A DNA stretch of 64,000 nt from assembly GCF_000468015.1 (NCBI RefSeq), contig NZ_KI260389.1, positions 77,699-141,698 of the forward strand, given 5' to 3'. This stretch comes from Ruminococcus callidus ATCC 27760. GTDB lineage: Bacteria; Bacillota; Clostridia; Oscillospirales; Ruminococcaceae. The notes below the pieces were generated by a model, which was given only the letters and a program-made list of their open reading frames with translations, did not search any database and was not told the DNA's origin. A program made the translations under genes and the position numbers. Shown here piece after piece: positions 17,729 to 37,656 of this stretch (position 1 is its first letter; each line of letters opens with the position of its first letter).

Positions 17729-19297
17729 TTATGACATTACAGATTGCAAATCTGTATCTATTTCATATTCAGCAAAGAATGAGGTTTCGTCAAATATAGG
17801 AATATTATAGGATCTAGCACTTGATACAACTTTGCTATCAATATTCTCTCGAACAGATCCGGTAATTACACAATCTACGTCAGATGTAAAGTGTGTGGTG
17901 ACGTGTGCAGCATAACTACTTAGAATGGCTGATACATCTGTGATACTACCATGCACAAAATCGCCTGTCAGACAAATTGTTTTACCTCGGAAAATAGGTG
18001 CTCCATTGAATCGCTTGTCCTGGTTATGAAAAATAATTTGTACACTCGTGACAACAGTGGTAAGATCAGATAGATTACAAGGATCATGGAACCACATTAT
18101 CAATTTATTTAAATCCGGATGCTTTATACCTAGATCAGATGTTATACAATCTGTATTCTGGGCATAATAGAGGAATGTTTTAATATTGTTATTGCAAGCG
18201 TTTGCAAACAATGTAAACACATCATCATTTGTAATGAGCTTTACAGGAATAAATGCTCGTAAAATGCATGCAAGTGTGGTCTCTACCCTTTTATTTGCAT
18301 AAGTATCCAAGAGAAATAAATCTGGAATACAAGTTAAGGTGTGACTTTTTATCAAAGCAAAAATCGTTGTACTCTTAGGAACATCCATCCGGAGAACTGA
18401 AAGAAAGTGTGTGACTTTGCTCAGTAGTTTAGACGTGCAATGCGGATCAGAGCATTGTACATATCCACTAGATGGTACCGAAAAAGTTTTTCCACAAAAT
18501 GAGCAAGTTAGCATATTGCTTCTTTTTTCAGCCTTCCATCTACCAATATACTTTGAATGTACTGGCTGATTATCAGAATCCAATACCAATAAGGAGTTTG
18601 TACCAATGCTCCATCGTACAATGTCGGAATAATCGTATGCTATCGGGACATTATTATCAGTATTATATACTCTTACTTTAATGTACCCATTATCATCCAC
18701 ATATTTTTCGATATGATCCACAGTGAATTGTTTCAATTGTAAAGACTCATATAAAATATCTGATCCTCTAAAAATAATACAGTCAGATATAATCGGATCA
18801 TTGAATGGAAATCTATCGCTATTAATCCACTTTGTGAATGCATCATCTGATACATTTGCAGGTGCAACCCATGCTGGCAACAAATGAAAATTATCTATCA
18901 TTAATGTAGAACGCATTTGATTTGCACCCTTTAATGGTACAATTGTACTTTCGGCAGTAGCAGCGAAAAAGTTAAACTTGTCTGGGTATTTCAAATATGA
19001 ATCAACAAGTGAATCATACACAGCCTGTGGAAGATCCCCAGATGCAGAAAACTGAGTTCCAGTATATAAAACACCTGTTACCCATGTTTTTCCAGATGTA
19101 ATATGAATCTTCCCTGGAACAGTATTGCTAGCAAGTAAAGGCATCATCAGTTTTGATGTAACATCTTGCTTATCTAAATTAAAGCCCTTATATACACGAG
19201 CTAGATTTCCGGATGTATTATACTCTAGTGTCAAATGTAAGCCGACTGGAACAGCTAATACATAATCTCCAGGTTTGAGAAGGTTTCTCTTATACAT
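17729..19297 (-). CDS. Degenerate NAD-dependent DNA ligase-like protein with zinc finger and BRCT
   Basis: I choose ATG 19297 behind AAGGTGA (522 residues). Residues about 12-75 align with the LigA adenylation core, but the KIDG of motif I is VPVG (followed by LHLTLEY), so the catalytic Lys and Asp are absent. The TRGDG..DVT region is YKGFNLDKQDVT, and motif IV DGVVIK is DCIIFR. A four-Cys zinc finger follows (CSFCG ... CSDPHC, near residues 265-290). After that comes a ligase-like SKLLSKVTHFLSVLRMD, a helical HhH-like part, and a clear C-terminal BRCT domain (RGKTICLTGDFVHGS ... VITGS). Domain Ia is missing. The protein probably cannot adenylate, so a DNA-end or nick-binding role near packaging is an inference. 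Confidence 0.75.
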   Translation of the reverse strand: MYKRNLLKPGDYVLAVPVGLHLTLEYNTSGNLARVYKGFNLDKQDVTSKLMMPLLASNTVPGKIHITSGKTWVTGVLYTGTQFSASGDLPQAVYDSLVDSYLKYPDKFNFFAATAESTIVPLKGANQMRSTLMIDNFHLLPAWVAPANVSDDAFTKWINSDRFPFNDPIISDCIIFRGSDILYESLQLKQFTVDHIEKYVDDNGYIKVRVYNTDNNVPIAYDYSDIVRWSIGTNSLLVLDSDNQPVHSKYIGRWKAEKRSNMLTCSFCGKTFSVPSSGYVQCSDPHCTSKLLSKVTHFLSVLRMDVPKSTTIFALIKSHTLTCIPDLFLLDTYANKRVETTLACILRAFIPVKLITNDDVFTLFANACNNNIKTFLYYAQNTDCITSDLGIKHPDLNKLIMWFHDPCNLSDLTTVVTSVQIIFHNQDKRFNGAPIFRGKTICLTGDFVHGSITDVSAILSSYAAHVTTHFTSDVDCVITGSVRENIDSKVVSSARSYNIPIFDETSFFAEYEIDTDLQSVMS

Positions 19298-19320
19298 AGT
19301 CATTCACCTTTCAGAAAATA

Positions 19321-20730
19321 TTATCTTTTATACATGCTTGCAAGCGTACTCATTACCGAGTTGCCGTAATGATTAGATCGGTTAGATTTATTTACACCAA
19401 GAATTGCTGGTCCAATAGATTGAATAGGAATAGATGTTCCTGGATTCTGCAAGATAGCATCCCAAATGCACCCAGCAAAGGAATCGGCCAGATCCTTCCC
19501 CCCACCAACCGGGTGGTCCACCTTCCCTGTAACACTATCCCTTTGTAGATGTACAAGTTCATCTTGTAATAATGTACTATCTAGCATATCGACTCTTTGA
19601 TCTATCAAAATATCTCGAAGTGCTATATAACCGTCTGGTGTTCTATCTAATGATATTTTTGGCGAATCAAATCCCTCTTGTTCTAATTGCTGGCCTATGT
19701 ATTCACTCTGAAACTGGTCACGAGATACAATAGGAATATCGTAGCCACGATCTCTAAGCCAACATATAAAAGCAAGTATCTTACTATATGGAATTTTATC
19801 TCCTCTTGGTGCCTCAATAGCGACAGAGAACATATGTGTTAAAAATGGGAGTGATACTCTACTACCGTCTTTGCCAGTAACATCTTTTCTGTTTGTAATA
19901 CCACATCCAGATATACCTGTTCTATCTCCATTTAATGATAAGTCAAGATGAATATAGATAGATGTATGCTTGAATTCTGGGAGAACAGCATCCTCATGAA
20001 AAAATTCTTCGATGGTATAAGCATCATGTACACCAATTTGAAGAATATCATTATAAAATGGATTTCTTCGATTCTTATTTATACACAAGGTTAAAGATTC
20101 CTGTGTAATAAAGGACAATGCTCCAACGTTTGCAATACCAGCTAAATCTCGTAGTGCAATTTCAAAATCTGCTAGAAAATCAGATCTCATATCAACAGGT
20201 GGTGTTAAAATGGTATACCCTTGTTGCTTTAAATCATCTAATGCTTCTGGAAAGCATTGATTGTCTGGTATAACAAATCCTCGATGATGCCTATCCCCTA
20301 CAGCAATGTAGAATTTTTCTTTTGAGAATGTTTCTGGTGGCAATACTTCCCACTGTGGAGCGTCAGTTATCATCATATGATCTCCTGCCCCAGCAGCTAA
20401 CTGCTCTTGTACATAGGACTCCATGAAGTCGCTATCACTACGTTTGGAACTGACAGCAAACAGTTTTCCGAAAACTTCACCGCCATGTTTGAACGTGCCT
20501 TTCACACGAGCTGATATCGTATTATAGGTCTCTCGCATGTGTGCTTTTGCTTTGTTTACATCCTTTACGCCAGCCTGTGAGAAGTTTATTTCATCCATTA
20601 CAGCACAATTATGAGAAATATAATTTGAATTCCCATGAATAATAAAATTATGATATGGTATAGCATTTATCACATCGTATACTGGAACTGGTGTGTCATA
20701 CTGAATTTTCTCAACTTTAGTAACCCTCAT
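19321..20730 (-). CDS. terL: Terminase large subunit, C-terminal half, preceded by C-intein
   Basis: I choose ATG 20730 behind GGGGTG. Residues 1-41 are a C-intein (block F VYDVINAIPYHNFII and block G YISHN). Cys42 then begins the C-extein with CAVMDEINF, the Walker B of terminase. The 428-residue extein includes the RNase H-like nuclease domain (IYIHLDLSLNGDRTG, VSRDQFQSEYIGQQL, GKVDHPVGGGKDLADSFAGC), which cuts concatemeric DNA. The ATPase N-half is encoded separately upstream, so protein trans-splicing is needed to give about 640 residues of intact terminase. Confidence 0.9.
   Translation of the reverse strand: MRVTKVEKIQYDTPVPVYDVINAIPYHNFIIHGNSNYISHNCAVMDEINFSQAGVKDVNKAKAHMRETYNTISARVKGTFKHGGEVFGKLFAVSSKRSDSDFMESYVQEQLAAGAGDHMMITDAPQWEVLPPETFSKEKFYIAVGDRHHRGFVIPDNQCFPEALDDLKQQGYTILTPPVDMRSDFLADFEIALRDLAGIANVGALSFITQESLTLCINKNRRNPFYNDILQIGVHDAYTIEEFFHEDAVLPEFKHTSIYIHLDLSLNGDRTGISGCGITNRKDVTGKDGSRVSLPFLTHMFSVAIEAPRGDKIPYSKILAFICWLRDRGYDIPIVSRDQFQSEYIGQQLEQEGFDSPKISLDRTPDGYIALRDILIDQRVDMLDSTLLQDELVHLQRDSVTGKVDHPVGGGKDLADSFAGCIWDAILQNPGTSIPIQSIGPAILGVNKSNRSNHYGNSVMSTLASMYKR
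20608..20730 (-). mobile_element. C-terminal half of split intein (41 aa)
   Basis: It encodes MRVTKVEKIQYDTPVPV through ISHN. It has the block F and block G motifs and the terminal His-Asn before a +1 Cys. Length (41) is normal for natural split C-inteins. Its partner N-intein is 1.1 kb upstream. Confidence 0.9.
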
Positions 20731-20741
20731 AAGATACACCC

Positions 20742-21824
20742 CTAACTAATCGGTGTTCGCTGTATGCTGGACGTTAGGGATTCATATCTCTTTACAGACT
20801 TACCAGATGCGATGTTTATAACAGAAGATAATGATATACTTGGATATCCATTATGCTGTAAATAAATCATCAATTCCTTACATGAATAACATTGAAAGTC
20901 ACCATATGTATATACATATTTACGATGCGATTCCGATATTGTTCTAGTTGTCTGGAAATCCTTTCCTTTCTTCCACCAATTACTCAAATATAAATCTAAT
21001 TCATCTTCTCGAATTTTCTTAGTAACCCCATCTTTATTGATATAAAGATTTTTTGCATTAAGTCTACCGTAGCAAAATCCTGAAATTAGATACTTTTGAA
21101 CATCCTTAGTTTCGATCAAGCGTTCTACTACACCGTTATTCATCCATATCGGTTTATAGCCTAATTTGTATTTCAGCTTTTGGGCAATACTAATCCTATG
21201 TCGAGATTCATCTGAGCGCTTAATTCCAGTCAAATTTGCAGAGTACTCTGCAATTCTAGAATCAACATCCTTTGTCAATCCCTTATTCCATGGAGTTTTA
21301 CCAATCAATTTAAATCGATGCGATTCAGATAGTGATTTCCCATGCAGTTTACTTGGATGGCTAAGCTTTACGCCACGTTTTGAATTGCTAATTTTAAGTT
21401 TTGTAGCAGCAGACACAGTATGTCCTGTTAGTCCAGCTACTAATTTTTTTCGTATTTCTGGTGTACTCCACATCTTTTTTGCATTGTCTCGAAGTTTATC
21501 AATTACGACCTGATTGAACTTTTGTGTATGATAATCTCCACCAGTAGTATTGTTATAGCCGTACATAGGATCATTTGATTTATATTCAGAAATAAGCCGT
21601 CGTTCTTCTAATTGTGCATCATGCAATGTAAGATCTGACATTAAAATATCATGTTGTATATTATCCCATCCATATTTCTGTATTGCAGACCAAAAATGAT
21701 GATTATTTTTATATCCTGCACCATTAGATCTCCAGCGACATTCTGGATGTTCCATTCCTGTAATACCAATATAAACTTTTCCATTTGGTGTCGTATGCCT
21801 GTAAACATAATACAAAATAATCAC
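20742..21824 (-). CDS. Free-standing GIY-YIG homing endonuclease with NUMOD3 repeats
   Basis: The first residues YYVYRHTTPNGKVYIGIT form the GIY-YIG core (GIY as YYV, YIG as YIG). They are followed by WDNIQHDILMSDLTLHDAQL and the conserved Glu region EERRLISEY. Between residues about 120 and 220 are NUMOD3-type DNA-binding repeats (TKLKISNSKRG, HRFKLIGKTPWNKGL, SRHRISIAQKL). The start is uncertain: GTG 21824 is too near AGGA, while TTG 21815 is better spaced. The gene lies between the two terminase halves with 11-base gaps on each side, so it is a separate polypeptide, not fused to the intein. It ends with TAG. Confidence 0.85.
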   Translation of the reverse strand: MIILYYVYRHTTPNGKVYIGITGMEHPECRWRSNGAGYKNNHHFWSAIQKYGWDNIQHDILMSDLTLHDAQLEERRLISEYKSNDPMYGYNNTTGGDYHTQKFNQVVIDKLRDNAKKMWSTPEIRKKLVAGLTGHTVSAATKLKISNSKRGVKLSHPSKLHGKSLSESHRFKLIGKTPWNKGLTKDVDSRIAEYSANLTGIKRSDESRHRISIAQKLKYKLGYKPIWMNNGVVERLIETKDVQKYLISGFCYGRLNAKNLYINKDGVTKKIREDELDLYLSNWWKKGKDFQTTRTISESHRKYVYTYGDFQCYSCKELMIYLQHNGYPSISLSSVINIASGKSVKRYESLTSSIQRTPIS

Positions 21825-21835
21825 GTCCTATTTTA

Positions 21836-22753
21836 TCATACTGTCAGCAAGTCATCATTTTCGGATATATCTTGAAGTCGTTTATAGGTTCCATCTGACA
21901 TCATAATGCGATGATCTGGAGTCCCCTCAATAATAGATCCATCTTCTAATGTAAGACGTATAGTGCTCGACGCATATCTAGTTTTTTTCACAAGTGCTTT
22001 AGATTCAAAAATATCACCATGATCTGAGTATTGCAATATACTATGCATTGAACCTTCTAAATCTTTTAGTTGATATATACCATCCGACGTATATATTTCG
22101 GTTGTACCGACTAGACAAAAAACCTGCTGACCAAGTGCATGTGACGCATCAGAGCCATAATCGATTACAATTTTTCCACCCTCTGGGATATAGTAGAAAT
22201 CTCTATCACTTCTTGAAAATGTACCATGAGCGTTAAACCATGGACTGGCTTTCAACGTATCGTTGAACTCACGGAATGCTACACCCTTTGCAAGATCCTT
22301 TGTAATGTTAAAAAACAGAATCGAAAATTTAGAAATATCTTTCTTACCAAAGAATTTTTGTGGATCTCTCAAACACATTAATCGATATAGCATGTATGCT
22401 GTACCTGTAATCGCTGTGGAGGATTTACCGATACGAGTAGCACCAGTTAAAACCCATTCGTGATACTTGTTTCCAGCGTCAAACATCCGCCGAAGTTCTT
22501 TTCTCCAAAATGGATATACTGCTTTACCGCATCTATTGGTTTTTCCGAGATATGTTTCGGATTCTATAAAAGTATCAATTGTAACAGGAATCTCTTTGAA
22601 ATCCTCTAACCAAATTTGCTCATATGTTGGAGAATGTCCTGTATCAGATATTTCCTCCAATATTTTACGCAAATATGATTTTTCCTCTGGTGTGGAACTA
22701 GAGTATATTCCACGAATACGATCTAAAATATCATTACAAGCGACATCATCCAT
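21836..22753 (-). CDS. terL: Terminase large subunit, N-terminal half, followed by N-intein
   Basis: I prefer ATG 22753 behind GGCGGTGA, overlapping the stop of the small-subunit candidate; ATG 22771 is possible. The N-extein (about 212 residues) has the packaging ATPase Walker A, TGATRIGKSST, and ends ALGQQVF. There a 93-residue N-intein begins with Cys (CLVGTTEIYTSDG, block A) and includes block B EGTPDHRIMM. The frame ends after the intein at TGA. The break falls exactly before Walker B, so no packaging ATPase can form without splicing. Confidence 0.9.
   Translation of the reverse strand: MDDVACNDILDRIRGIYSSSTPEEKSYLRKILEEISDTGHSPTYEQIWLEDFKEIPVTIDTFIESETYLGKTNRCGKAVYPFWRKELRRMFDAGNKYHEWVLTGATRIGKSSTAITGTAYMLYRLMCLRDPQKFFGKKDISKFSILFFNITKDLAKGVAFREFNDTLKASPWFNAHGTFSRSDRDFYYIPEGGKIVIDYGSDASHALGQQVFCLVGTTEIYTSDGIYQLKDLEGSMHSILQYSDHGDIFESKALVKKTRYASSTIRLTLEDGSIIEGTPDHRIMMSDGTYKRLQDISENDDLLTV
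21839..22117 (-). mobile_element. N-terminal half of split intein (93 aa)
   Basis: Residues CLVGTTEI through ENDDLLTV contain block A with Cys1, then TIRLTLEDGSIIEGTPDHRI with the TxxH of block B. A length near 90 is typical of natural split N-inteins such as gp41-type ones. No endonuclease domain is present. Confidence 0.9.
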
Positions 22754-23264
22754 CGGAATCACCGCCTGCATCTAGATTCTTTAATTCTAGCATGAGCGAT
22801 TGTGCCTTTGAACGGACGCTGTCTCGCTCTTCTGGACTCAGCAAACTATCAGATTTTGCAGTATCTGCATCATCTGGAGTAAGTTCTACTACAGTAAATT
22901 CTTTAATATCAAGATATGGCTGTAGCAACTTATGAGATTCAATCATACTTTTCTGTAGTTTCTCTTGTATATTTAGAAGCATCATCCACGTTGTAGGATC
23001 AGAACTAGATGCAGAGTCAATTGCAGAATCAATGCAACTATATAATTTATCCTCTAACTTGTCCATAAGTTCTGTGTATCGAATGATTCTCATAAGCTGG
23101 TGATATACACGCATAGCGGTTATATTTTGAAGTGCTTGTCTAGTAGATCCGCCATTGGCATCTGTGCATGCCAATAAGGATGTACGCATTTTGCACACAT
23201 CCTCTTTCTGTCGTTGATACAGCGGATTCAGAACAGTATTGCCATCAACGGTTTTGATGCTCAA
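22746..23264 (-). CDS. Terminase small subunit candidate
   Basis: The best start is TTG 23264, six bases behind GGTGGTG (172 residues). The protein is mostly helical with a coiled-coil-like centre (YHQLMRIIRYTELMDKLEDK, MLLNIQEKLQKSMIESHKLL). It has an acidic tail (LSPEERDSVRSKAQSLM to GGDSDG) whose stop overlaps the large subunit start. Small terminases are poorly conserved; position directly upstream of terL and helical oligomer-like composition support the call. No clear DNA-binding motif is seen. Confidence 0.5.
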   Translation of the reverse strand: MSIKTVDGNTVLNPLYQRQKEDVCKMRTSLLACTDANGGSTRQALQNITAMRVYHQLMRIIRYTELMDKLEDKLYSCIDSAIDSASSSDPTTWMMLLNIQEKLQKSMIESHKLLQPYLDIKEFTVVELTPDDADTAKSDSLLSPEERDSVRSKAQSLMLELKNLDAGGDSDG

Positions 23265-33714: not shown

Positions 33715-35931
33715 TTATACATGTTTTTCGCCGGGTGCATATCCAGTATGCACTTTTGTATGGATGTGTTCTAGGAACTCACCCTCTGTAATATTATAAC
33801 GATTGCAATAGTCTAACATATCGGATTCTACGGTGTCACTCCATACACCATTTACACCAAGGGCTTCATCACCTTCAGGCTTTCCCCCATCTGCTGTTTT
33901 ATACACAGGAAGATCATACCCAACTTCAAATAGATGATACTGAATCCAGGCGATTTCATCCTTCTCTGTAGGGTGTACAGTGAATGGCTGTTTATAGCGA
34001 CATGGATATTCCAGACCATACCAGCGATATGTTGTTGTGACATCACATTTGATGGAAAATGGTAGGAAATTTGCAGCAGAGCACATAGAACTACTCAAAA
34101 TCTCTCCGCCCTCTTTCCACTTGTCGATAGGAACTTCTGCAATCAGCTCATCATGAACTGGAACAAGGACTCTACCACCAATCTTATTCCATTCTGGATT
34201 ATTCTCTACTTTTAGCATAGCTAATTTTGTTAAATCAGCAGCACTTCCTTGAATAATTGAGTTTCCTGTGATATACACACTACCATTTCGTCGAGCAATC
34301 CAAGTACCATTTCCAGTTGTAACGCACCAAACGGTATCAACCACTGATGCAGATTTATGATCTGGATATATATGAGCTCGTTTACGTTTATTTATATAAA
34401 CAAGATAATACGGATTTTTTGTATTTATATACCCTGATGGATTAGAAACATTCCCATAGTGAATAGATGATTCAGTAGGATCGATTTTATACATATGAGA
34501 TACATGACCCCCAATCACACACAAATACTGAAATATATCAGCTTTTTCAGCAGAATTGCAAGTATAGCAAGTTTGACTACCACTCGTCCAACCATCACCC
34601 TGAATCATAGCACTAATTAAAATATTTGCTTGCCGTTCAGATAAACTTGAAACAAACTCATATTTCAATGTTCGGTTTTCTAGCAAATTTAAAACATCCA
34701 GTGTCACATCACATTTATACAAATATATATCATGATAAGTGTTATTTCTAACATTATCAGTATACTTGATACCTAAACGGTGCAACACAGAAATCATATC
34801 TTGATAAACACCTGCACCTTTAGCACGTTTAGTGTCTTGATACAATCTTACACAATAATGCTTAGATGAAATGGTCCCATCAGTTGCAATCCAGCCAATC
34901 AATTTTATAAAATCATCGCTATATGATGATTCTGGAATATTGTTATCGCTCATCCGCAATATAGGTGGATCAACCCATTTAATATTCATGATGTGTTCTG
35001 TAGTAACAAACTTTGCCCCCTTATTCCCAGCTTGACAAACCCATCTGTGATTTGGAGTGGAAACCGCAGAGAATGCGTTTGACTTAAACTCAAATACTTC
35101 ATGTTCACCGGGGTAAATATGCACTGCTTGTACTTTATCATGTGTGATGCAATTCAGATTCATAGAATAACTCAAAATAGAATCTCCTACAGAAACTTGA
35201 TTGTATCGTTTCCAACCGGAAGTTGTCAGTATCTCTGTCTCAGTATCAACACAGTTTACACACTGTCTCGATCCATCAGCAATTTTGCGGTTATTATTAA
35301 TAACCTTGATATGATCTTCTTCGGCAAGTGCTCTGATACGTTTTGCAACTTGTCCAAAATACTTATAAGACTTTAATTCACGATATAATGCGACTTTTAC
35401 TCTATCTGGAATGTCATCTGTTACATCCAAAGTAGACGCATCAAGTGGATCAATGTCCGGATTCACATAACCCTTCAAAGGTTTAAATTCAAATTCTGGA
35501 AGTTGCATTTCTGGAATATGCCGCCTTCTTCCAAGGATGGTTTCAACATACCCCTTTTCTTTTGCGCATCTCTGTGCATTAATCATCAGTTTCCGGAGTG
35601 CAGGAAACGCATTCAGAACTGAGTCGTACACATACTGTGCTTGTTTTAATTTCTTCTCATCAGACCAATCCATATGACTATATAGCTGGTCTGCAATCGT
35701 GTTAATAGAACGTCCATATAAAATTCCAAGTACCACACTTTTAGATTCTGAACGTCTTGCTTTTCCTTCTGGTTGATAAGCTCCGGTAGTAGGATTGAAT
35801 TCAAGGCAATCTTCATAGCTCATATTAAATGCGATAGACGCAATGAAACTATAAATATCCTTGTTCTCCTGAAAAGACCGGATCATATTTTCGTCCTGAC
35901 TGACAAATGCGGTCAATTTTGGTTCTTGCTG
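33715..35931 (-). CDS. polA: Family A DNA polymerase, second exon, with in-frame intein
   Basis: This reading frame has no start of its own. It begins at 35931 with QQEPKLTAFVSQ, which completes motif A after splicing. It contains motif B (ARRSESKSVVLGILYGRS), the GRRRHIPEM region, and then a 331-residue intein (34261-35253). After the intein come SIIQGSAADLTKLAM and motif C VHDE. Spliced and without intein the polymerase is about 861 residues (454 + 407). Invasions by a group I intron and an intein both sit in highly conserved active-site regions. Confidence 0.9.
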   Translation of the reverse strand, partial: QQEPKLTAFVSQDENMIRSFQENKDIYSFIASIAFNMSYEDCLEFNPTTGAYQPEGKARRSESKSVVLGILYGRSINTIADQLYSHMDWSDEKKLKQAQYVYDSVLNAFPALRKLMINAQRCAKEKGYVETILGRRRHIPEMQLPEFEFKPLKGYVNPDIDPLDASTLDVTDDIPDRVKVALYRELKSYKYFGQVAKRIRALAEEDHIKVINNNRKIADGSRQCVNCVDTETEILTTSGWKRYNQVSVGDSILSYSMNLNCITHDKVQAVHIYPGEHEVFEFKSNAFSAVSTPNHRWVCQAGNKGAKFVTTEHIMNIKWVDPPILRMSDNNIPESSYSDDFIKLIGWIATDGTISSKHYCVRLYQDTKRAKGAGVYQDMISVLHRLGIKYTDNVRNNTYHDIYLYKCDVTLDVLNLLENRTLKYEFVSSLSERQANILISAMIQGDGWTSGSQTCYTCNSAEKADIFQYLCVIGGHVSHMYKIDPTESSIHYGNVSNPSGYINTKNPYYLVYINKRKRAHIYPDHKSASVVDTVWCVTTGNGTWIARRNGSVYITGNSIIQGSAADLTKLAMLKVENNPEWNKIGGRVLVPVHDELIAEVPIDKWKEGGEILSSSMCSAANFLPFSIKCDVTTTYRWYGLEYPCRYKQPFTVHPTEKDEIAWIQYHLFEVGYDLPVYKTADGGKPEGDEALGVNGVWSDTVESDMLDYCNRYNITEGEFLEHIHTKVHTGYAPGEKHV
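34261..35253 (-). mobile_element. LAGLIDADG intein in DNA polymerase
   Basis: The 331-residue intein begins CVDTETEILTTSGWKRYNQV and contains block B VSTPNHRWV. It has two LAGLIDADG-type helices (KLIGWIATDGTISS and ILISAMIQGDGWTSG) and ends VYITGN before Ser. The penultimate residue is Gly, not the usual His. The insertion point is CVN/SIIQGSAAD. Confidence 0.9.
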
Positions 35932-36294
35932 CTTTATCGGTTATGCGTTCGCTAAACGCTTCCCTTATTACTAAGGGTGTCGGATCAACTCTTAAATGTG
36001 CATAGCTGTTACCACATATACACAAATCTCTGAATTTCCATTTAATAGATTTACAATAGGGTAATATCACCTAAACACTAACTCGCCTGAGCTGTACTCT
36101 ACTAACTTGGTTATCTCAACTGACCTATGATTGAAAACTCATATTTATGTATTTCTACAAATGTCAATTTCTAGCTTTCGATGATCTCTACACACGGTAC
36201 TATAGCACCTTGCTCGGGATTAACCCATAAGTGAACCACATCTCATAGGCATTCCCCGAATTAACAGAGTTTTACTTCAGCCAACTTTCCGTAA
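35932..36294 (-). ncRNA. Group I intron in polymerase gene, no endonuclease ORF
   Basis: The 363-nt intron starts after exon CTTCAGT (36295 is its last T) and ends with G at 35932. P1 forms between exon CTTCAGT and intron GCTGAAG with the required U-G pair. The core contains a P-like AATTCGGGGAATGCC, a Q-like AATCCCGAGCAAG, R-like TGTAGAGATCATCG, and P7 partner TTGATCC (GATCA with TGATC). Near the 3-prime end are P9-type hairpins CCCTTA/TAAGGG and GCGTT/AACGC. Splicing restores SDFS-QQEPK of motif A in frame. Too short for an endonuclease, so mobility would need one in trans. Confidence 0.92.
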
Positions 36295-37656
36295 ACTGAA
36301 GTCTGACGATAAAAGTACATATCCAGGAGTTGCACGGAACATATGCCGAATATCATTATGCTTACTAGGAATGTTCTGCATGTTTGGTGACTTGGATGAC
36401 ATGCGCCCAGTATCAGCTCCTATTGCTCGGAACTCACAATGAATTCTGCTATCCGGAGAAGTTGCATTTGGCAATTTTTCTACAAACGTAGAAATCAAAG
36501 TTACCAAGCTCCGACACTTCAATATCTGATTGACAACCGGAACATTAAATGTACTAAGAATTGATTTATCAGTACCTCTATGTTTTGGATCACCAAGACG
36601 TAATAGGTCATACACAATCCATGTAACATGCTTTGATGAGCATTCATTGAAATCAACGCTTGAATTAAATGGGCATCTGGTATTAGTAACATATTTTGGA
36701 TCATCTATCAATTCCTGAACCATATCACGAAGCTTGCTACGTTCTTTTTCCAGTGTTGGGATATACTTCGCATGCAGCATCTTTGCCATCGACTTTTCCA
36801 GATAAATGCCTCGTCTGTGCATATTCTGACAAATTGCAATCATGGGAAATTCTACATTCCATACCAAATCTGCAATTGCTTCAAATCCATGTTTTTTGCA
36901 CTTTGGATTATCTTTCAGTAAATAGGGCAACTGCCACATAAATAACTCATAGGTAATCTTAGCATCATGTGCAGCGTACAATTTTGCAATTTCAGGACGA
37001 CAATATGGAAACTGTGCAGGCGTAAAGAAATCTCGAAATTTCATCGGATCTCCCTTACCTCGCAATACATATTTACAATACAACCCCTTCAATGAGTTAT
37101 CTTTCTCATTTTCCTTCAGACAGCGCCATGCAGTGATACAATCATAGTAGCAGCTCTTAATAAAATCTACTTTGAGGTCTTTGTAGATCATAGCAAGGTC
37201 GAAATCAGCATTTGCGAAAATCAGTCTTACATCGCTATCTGCTATTCTTTGATATTCTTCTGTCACATCTTCGTATGTAAGCTGATTTGCATACGGTTCA
37301 TCAAAAATAGGTACAATGTGTTTATTTGGAATATAACACTCTACACCACCAGGATAGTATAAAGATGATCCAACAATTGTGTCATTTAACCGATCCAGAC
37401 CTGTAGTTTCTGTATCAATTGCAGCGTAGCCAGTCTTTATAAGTTCTGTAACGTAATCATGTAGCTGTGCTTTTGACGTAATGAGGATAGCATTAGAATC
37501 CTTGAAATACTCTTCCACGTTTCGTGAAATTTCTTCAAGGTCTGATGTGATGCTCTTAGACACTGTTTTCCGTTTTGCTGGAACAGTTAGAGCATTATTG
37601 CTTTTTACAGCTGCCGCTTTTATCTGCGACATCTGAGCAGCATTAAATAGTCCCAT
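36295..37656 (-). CDS. polA: Family A DNA polymerase, first exon (3'-5' exonuclease domain and palm start)
   Basis: I choose ATG 37656 behind AGAGGTGATAA. The exon encodes 454 residues: an N-terminal basic stretch, a DnaQ-type 3'-5' exonuclease with YAAIDTETTGLD (ExoI), NADFDLAMIY (ExoII) and YAAHDAKITYEL (ExoIII). The start of the polymerase domain follows, through TGRMSSKSPNMQNIP and VLLSSDFS (motif A). In the unspliced message the frame would stop after LRKVG at 36277, giving a dead polymerase. The gene is related to SPO1-like and bacterial Pol I types. Confidence 0.9.

Follow-up and report, generated by a model that had tools for sequence, protein, structure and literature searches.

A phage terminase gene fractured by a canonical split intein and an intervening GIY-YIG endonuclease gene

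In a stretch of 64,000 nucleotides from the assembly of Ruminococcus callidus ATCC 27760 (NZ_KI260389.1, positions 77,699 to 141,698; the window hereafter), the gene for the large subunit of a phage terminase (terL) is divided between two separate open reading frames (ORFs), and no intact copy of this conserved enzyme gene was found in the assembly. The broken ends carry complementary intein halves, and a free-standing GIY-YIG endonuclease gene stands between them. The arrangement is very probably a selfish mobile unit, in which a class 1 split intein and a GIY-YIG homing endonuclease together occupy an essential phage gene, that is, a fractured gene with GIY-YIG homing. The codon that it occupies is a conserved one just ahead of Walker B in the packaging ATPase. 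The phage contig is 144,696 bp long and is binned with a 3.1-Mb bacterial assembly; a terminal repeat was looked for on this contig and was not found.

Architecture of the Fractured Gene

The N-terminal and C-terminal halves of terL lie on the minus strand (22771-21836 and 20730-19321; Table 1), and both align to intact TerL proteins from other phages. The N-extein matches the TerL PHROG (terminase) with an E-value of 2e-8 and shares 79% identity with the uninterrupted TerL from contig 3300029969_000013 (L012/L035). The C-extein, which opens with CAVMDEINF from 20607, is 70% identical to L012, and its tblastn matches include the TerL of Listeria phage LIS04 (35%), that of Bacillus phage SP-15 (36%) and approximately 340 other phage records. 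The insertion point of the 1,510-bp unit falls directly ahead of the DE of Walker B, where the original prediction had also placed the break, and the proposed joining of ALGQQVF to CAVMDEINF would indeed give back a terminase motif. A contiguous terL elsewhere in the genome had been named beforehand as the finding that would speak against a fractured gene; when each half was used to search the entire assembly, neither a second nor a contiguous terL was returned.

Table 1. Positions of the parts of the fractured terL in the window
Feature	Position	Strand	Basis
N-half ORF (N-extein, N-intein and TGA)	22771-21836	-	
TerL N-extein, amino acids 1-218, Walker A half of the ATPase, ends ALGQQVF	22118..22771	-	ORF, translation
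N-intein, 93 amino acids, Cys1, block B TPDH	21839..22117	-	NCBIfam intein_Nterm, alignment to contiguous inteins of relatives
Free-standing GIY-YIG endonuclease gene, TAG stop	20742..21824	-	PHROG, fold match
C-intein, 41 amino acids from ATG 20730, block F (HNF), terminal HN (...HNF...ISHN)	20608..20730	-	Translation, alignment to C-inteins of relatives
TerL C-extein, 428 amino acids, Cys+1 AVMDE Walker B, nuclease domain, TAA at 19321	19321..20607	-	tblastn
Whole inserted unit, 1,510 bp	20608..22117	-	Comparison with empty alleles; equal-length precise insert in L101 compared with L100

Every residue and block needed for splicing is present, namely Cys1, TPDH, HNF, the terminal HN and Cys+1, and the combination of Cys1 (CLVG...), TPDH as the TxxH of block B, an ISHN end and Cys+1 is that of a class 1 intein. 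The N-intein (CLVGTTEIYT...TPDH...DDLLTV), which is closed by a TGA stop at 21836-21838, scores above the NCBIfam intein_Nterm cut-off, and a profile built from the window intein and its relatives matches the split DnaE, NrdJ-1 and gp41-1 inteins with E-values down to 1e-12. Because of the intein_Nterm, split-intein profile, PHROG and intact-TerL matches, chance resemblance to an intein or to terL is excluded. The layout put forward in the original prediction, with an N-half that ends in a 93-residue N-intein bearing Cys1 and TxxH and a TGA (22117-21836), a separate GIY-YIG gene (21824/21815-20742, by PHROG and I-TevI fold match) and a C-half that starts with a 41-residue C-intein (block F, HN) followed by the Cys+1 of CAVMDEINF, is thus borne out to the base by the ORFs, translations, profile and TerL matches.

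The Hint fold was modelled with AlphaFold on the contiguous intein of the relative L043, with the window halves included in the alignment. The model is predicted to adopt a Hint fold (predicted local distance difference test, pLDDT, 96.3) that matches the NrdJ-1 and Npu DnaE inteins, and the break of the window would fall at residues 93-101 of this model, in a loop joining two strands. In inteins, this loop of the Hint fold is the usual place of the homing endonuclease domain or of a natural split.

The N-half, the GIY-YIG gene and the C-half occupy three different frames, as follows from arithmetic on their coordinates, and simple read-through therefore cannot join them. An in-frame GIY-YIG intein or read-through product was accordingly rejected for the window; it is partly true of L101 and L140. 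An event at the level of RNA, whether a group I or II intron or a frameshift or read-through, could in principle remove or span the endonuclease gene and leave one intein-containing TerL. Phage terL introns are known (ICP1, PMC10448857), a probable intron lies in this phage's own DNA polymerase gene, and the LIS04 N-half apparently holds an intron-like insert. Nevertheless, the gap is nearly all coding, with approximately 20 non-coding nucleotides, which would hardly accommodate a ribozyme; Rfam gave no match in 20500-22300, even at an E-value of 1, and an intron in the gap was rejected on this ground; the three frames would demand two frameshifts; and the C-half has a strong ribosome-binding site of its own (Shine-Dalgarno AGGGG ahead of ATG 20730, -9.0 kcal/mol). 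An RNA-level event is thus scarcely credible.

Constraint on the Splice Junction

Relatives were drawn from phage records, viral contigs and genome contigs, and gave 86 distinct TerL alleles. The original prediction had called for intein-less terL genes to be sought at this site in phage data, and 66 of the 86 alleles are empty there; 12 hold a contiguous mini-intein and eight a split intein. All 20 intein alleles have Cys+1, whereas only 25 of 64 empty alleles have it (Fisher p 6e-7), and the bias persists when pairs independent on the phylogeny are compared (about 10:0; median p about 0.002). At the level of sequence, this pattern in the host gene shows selection for splicing. The two halves would be joined by protein trans-splicing, for which the Cys+1 constraint provides indirect support. 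In a few cis alleles (L017, L091 and L144), the intein lies one to a few codons away from this insertion point.

An alternative possibility is that the terL pieces act as separate, non-covalently associated subunits and that the intein halves are dead remnants. The ORFs are indeed separate, each with its own ribosome-binding site, and PMC10448857 cites a phage ribonucleotide reductase gene that is interrupted by an endonuclease gene and still functions as two peptides. The break in terL, however, interrupts the ATPase fold itself, immediately ahead of the Walker B DE, and does not separate one domain from another. All splicing residues are kept, Cys+1 is invariant where an intein is present and free to vary in empty alleles, and the contiguous inteins that relatives carry at the site, or no more than a few codons from it, must splice for an intact TerL to be made. 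Separate subunits are therefore a very improbable explanation.

The GIY-YIG Endonuclease

The protein encoded between the halves matches a PHROG of homing endonucleases (E-value 2e-22), and TIGR01453 (group I intron endonuclease) matches it below cut-off. Two start codons are available, GTG 21824 (360 amino acids) and TTG 21815 (357 amino acids), and the better Shine-Dalgarno sequence precedes the TTG (-7.9 kcal/mol). The catalytic residues of the family are present (YVY at 3-5, KVYIG at 13-17, R27, E70/E71 and N88), and we take the Tyr, Tyr, Arg, Glu and Asn to have the roles that they have in other family members. In the predicted structure of the N-terminal domain, the top fold match is the I-TevI catalytic domain (probability 0.99, template modelling score 0.72 on the target, E-value 0.24). 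The original prediction had described NUMOD3 repeats; one NUMOD3 match was recovered, below the Pfam cut-off (E-value 0.017), so a single weak match stands in place of the repeats.

Split inteins with a GIY-YIG gene occur at this site in five other phages (L101, L047, L111, L140 and L033). Homologues of the window nuclease are found in the same intein loop in L101 (39% identity), L047 (29-47%) and L111 (36%; all over aligned rows), and a more distant GIY-YIG is present at the site in L140 (23%), with another on the opposite strand in L033. The GIY-YIG is fused in frame to the N-intein in L101 and, with the more distant nuclease, in L140. A search for additional relatives returned mainly unrelated free-standing GIY-YIG genes.

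Mobility of This Kind of Unit

The terL site is an intein hot spot. Intein presence on the TerL tree needs at least 17 gains or losses, and its clustering is no greater than with shuffled labels. The closest view of a single event comes from L101 and L100, whose DNA is 98.6-98.9% identical across 8.7 kb except for a precise 1,510-bp insert in L101 that consists of N-intein, GIY-YIG and C-intein. Because the insert is so precise and the empty L100 is nearly identical, an element of this kind, with split intein and GIY-YIG gene, moves as one unit, and since L109, an outgroup with 77-79% identity in the terL region, has no insert, a gain in L101 is the simpler reading. A second comparison, of L047 with L049 (84-86% identity), places an insert of L047 at the same codon. 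No clear gradient of co-conversion around the junction was seen in either pair.

These observations are consistent with the following course of events. The two terL halves and the endonuclease would be translated separately off one strand, and the N-intein and C-intein would associate and fold as a single Hint domain, which would then cut itself out and join ALGQQVF to CAVMDEINF. Because splicing would yield an intact terminase, the insert would cost the phage little. In a mixed infection, insert-less terL would presumably be cut close to the site by the endonuclease, and repair of the break templated by the insert-bearing genome would copy the whole unit. The GIY-YIG protein would in this manner cut the insert-less allele and drive its own transfer, for which the L101/L100 pair and the repeated gain and loss provide indirect support.

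Several points weigh against such a selfish unit in the window itself. Around the site, the DNA of the closest empty relatives of the window is no more than approximately 77% identical, so that the evidence for recent mobility concerns the element of its cousins and not the window copy. The model of the full GIY-YIG protein has a mean pLDDT of 63.6 and is good only over the N-terminal 80 or so residues and a C-terminal stretch, and the target of the endonuclease is not predictable from a model of such limited reach. Finally, trans-splicing, DNA cleavage and the targeting of this site by this nuclease are steps that we infer.

It is also conceivable that trans-splicing is real and that the GIY-YIG gene is an unrelated passenger, with the split intein inherited vertically or moved by general recombination. 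Free-standing GIY-YIG genes are common in phages, L033 has its nuclease in the reverse orientation, the gaps of SP-15, LIS04 and L050 contain no GIY-YIG gene, and the target specificity of the window protein is itself inferred. Against a passenger stand the recurrence of homologous GIY-YIG genes in the same intein loop of distant phages, the in-frame fusion of nuclease and N-intein in two cases (L101 and L140) and the precise presence of the unit in L101 compared with near-identical L100. On balance, a passenger is unlikely, although it is the most serious competitor of the mobile unit.

The original prediction had further suggested that a terminase inactive until spliced would give a built-in delay in packaging. 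Splicing takes time in principle, and this earlier suggestion is all that speaks for a regulatory device. Both halves and the nuclease gene sit side by side on a single strand; among relatives, the intein is gained or lost 17 times in an unclustered manner; phages that are otherwise nearly identical differ in whether they have the insert; and published TerL inteins splice quickly (PMC5050341). Such a pattern fits a dispensable selfish element, and a delaying function can hardly be maintained.

Variants Among Relatives

The split takes several other forms. The terL halves of SP-15, LIS04, L031 and L050 are split with no GIY-YIG in the gap. In the record of Streptococcus phage GXN1 (PQ819873; L010 and L011), the N-half with its N-intein lies approximately 60 kb from the C-half with its C-intein, and if the assembly is right, this terL is a fully dispersed split gene. 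Further inserts are also seen. The terL N-half of SP-15 (L009, 816-4102) is broken again, by an additional intein close to the P-loop and by an insert that contains an endonuclease gene, and that of LIS04 (L008, 2011-4134) by an intron-like insert that bears an endonuclease gene and directly precedes the N-intein. L111, L033, L026, L011 and L018 have a second intein-like insert, which is contiguous, near the C-terminal end of TerL (late C-extein, near DHP). In more distant relatives (L057, L129, L137, L139, L146, L152 and others), in-frame stops occur within terL, which suggests a reassigned stop codon.

Two split-intein phages of one clade, L047 and L111, have a C-extein frame that is broken at the same Leu codon just past the splice junction. 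The sequence in L047 (8946-8965) reads CTT TGA C, with one extra T, and is an RF2-like +1 motif; in L111 (6027-6064), CTG is followed by 22 nucleotides beginning TAATAG and then by CTG GAT, which resembles a translational bypass gap. The native CG(F/M)LDEVNF would return on crossing either gap, and the intein-free L046, L048 and L049 are unbroken. A second terL was not found in the L047 and L111 records, and the GIY-YIG ORF of L047 likewise carries a frame break. Recoding, a scar at a nuclease cut site and assembly error are all possible.

The contiguous forms may bear on whether the split can be undone. Three of ten cis mini-inteins (L043, L094 and L095) hold a Met at the exact position of the split forms' start codon, and this Met is preceded by a Shine-Dalgarno-like sequence (-4.4, -7.1 and -5.8 kcal/mol, respectively, each non-significant singly against shuffles). 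In a weakly supported intein tree, split GIY-YIG and cis forms are interleaved, and the cis forms mostly sit on longer branches. The retained Met and Shine-Dalgarno sequence, together with the interleaved tree, suggest that the fracture is reversible by loss of the nuclease gene. It is tentatively proposed, with rather more doubt than confidence, that the split GIY-YIG intein and the contiguous mini-intein are two life-cycle phases at this terL codon: the split form would invade, and loss of the endonuclease gene would re-fuse the halves into a cis mini-intein.

Comparison With Known Systems

The kind of element is already known, as both a GIY-YIG fractured gene and split TerL inteins have been published. 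A close likeness is AceL NrdHF, a fractured nrdHF in which a putative GIY-YIG homing endonuclease separates canonical split-intein halves (98 + 48 amino acids), for which trans-splicing was shown by experiment (PMC7891396). The two share a fractured gene, a canonical split and an intervening GIY-YIG, but AceL NrdHF is a ribonucleotide reductase subunit with a class 3 intein that lacks Cys1, whereas the window has TerL and a class 1 intein with Cys1. The expectation in the original prediction that the nuclease family known from such gaps would be a different one was therefore mistaken. Naturally split inteins of the phage terminase large subunit include AceL-TerL and GOS-TerL, which are among the published precedents that splice (PMC11766414). 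Their split is atypical (25/104 and 37/115 amino acids); the window, with 93 + 41, lies outside that pattern (N-intein of 25-37 and C-intein of 104-115 amino acids) and is canonical.

LIS04 (OQ999172) and SP-15 (KT624200) have a split intein at the same TerL codon as the window. Unlike the window, they have a gap without GIY-YIG and further inserts with a different endonuclease gene in the N-half. Their terL genes are annotated piecemeal, and the LIS04 genome announcement mentions neither intein nor terminase. Dassa and colleagues reportedly described in 2009, mainly from phages, enzyme genes that a split intein interrupts and whose two halves flank a free-standing endonuclease gene; the best-known endonuclease there is Vsr-like, and the hosts are reportedly enzymes of DNA synthesis and repair, not TerL.

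Two additional systems are comparable. The mycobacteriophage TerL1-e intein, which splices in assay, lies at the TerL Walker B as well (PMC5050341), but is a contiguous cis intein in a different TerL family, whereas that of the window is split. The PolB gene of Pseudomonas phage MIJ3 has an HNH endonuclease gene between split-intein halves (PMC6892783), a layout common to both phages, although the pairing there is DNA polymerase B with HNH and here TerL with GIY-YIG. A literature search of incomplete coverage found no published description of TerL with a canonical split and GIY-YIG. What is new here is this combination, together with a series of alleles that includes a near-identical pair with and without the insert.

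Neighboring Genes and Other Inserts

A T4-like portal gene lies downstream of terL, separated from it by one BRCT-domain ORF (17729-19303, minus strand). The BRCT domain of this ORF is C-terminal, as in NAD-dependent DNA ligases, and a zinc-ribbon-like Cys motif is also present. The phage carries other inserts in its DNA polymerase A gene, which is interrupted at motif A (DFS|QQEPK) by an ORF-less group I-like intron of approximately 370 nucleotides (35930-36297, minus strand); the Rfam group I match is weak and spans the full model (E-value 0.23). The same gene holds a contiguous intein with a LAGLIDADG-type domain (Pfam LAGLIDADG_3; 34261-35253, minus strand).

Significance

Taken together, the terL site presents an unusually complete natural series, from empty alleles to contiguous mini-inteins to split forms, in which the endonuclease is fused to the N-intein, free, of another kind or missing, and in which the halves can stand approximately 60 kb apart (GXN1). 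The intein of the window is a candidate canonical 93/41 split intein for protein ligation. Ultimately, this site lets the origin of split inteins, and the joint mobilization of both halves by an endonuclease, be tested directly.

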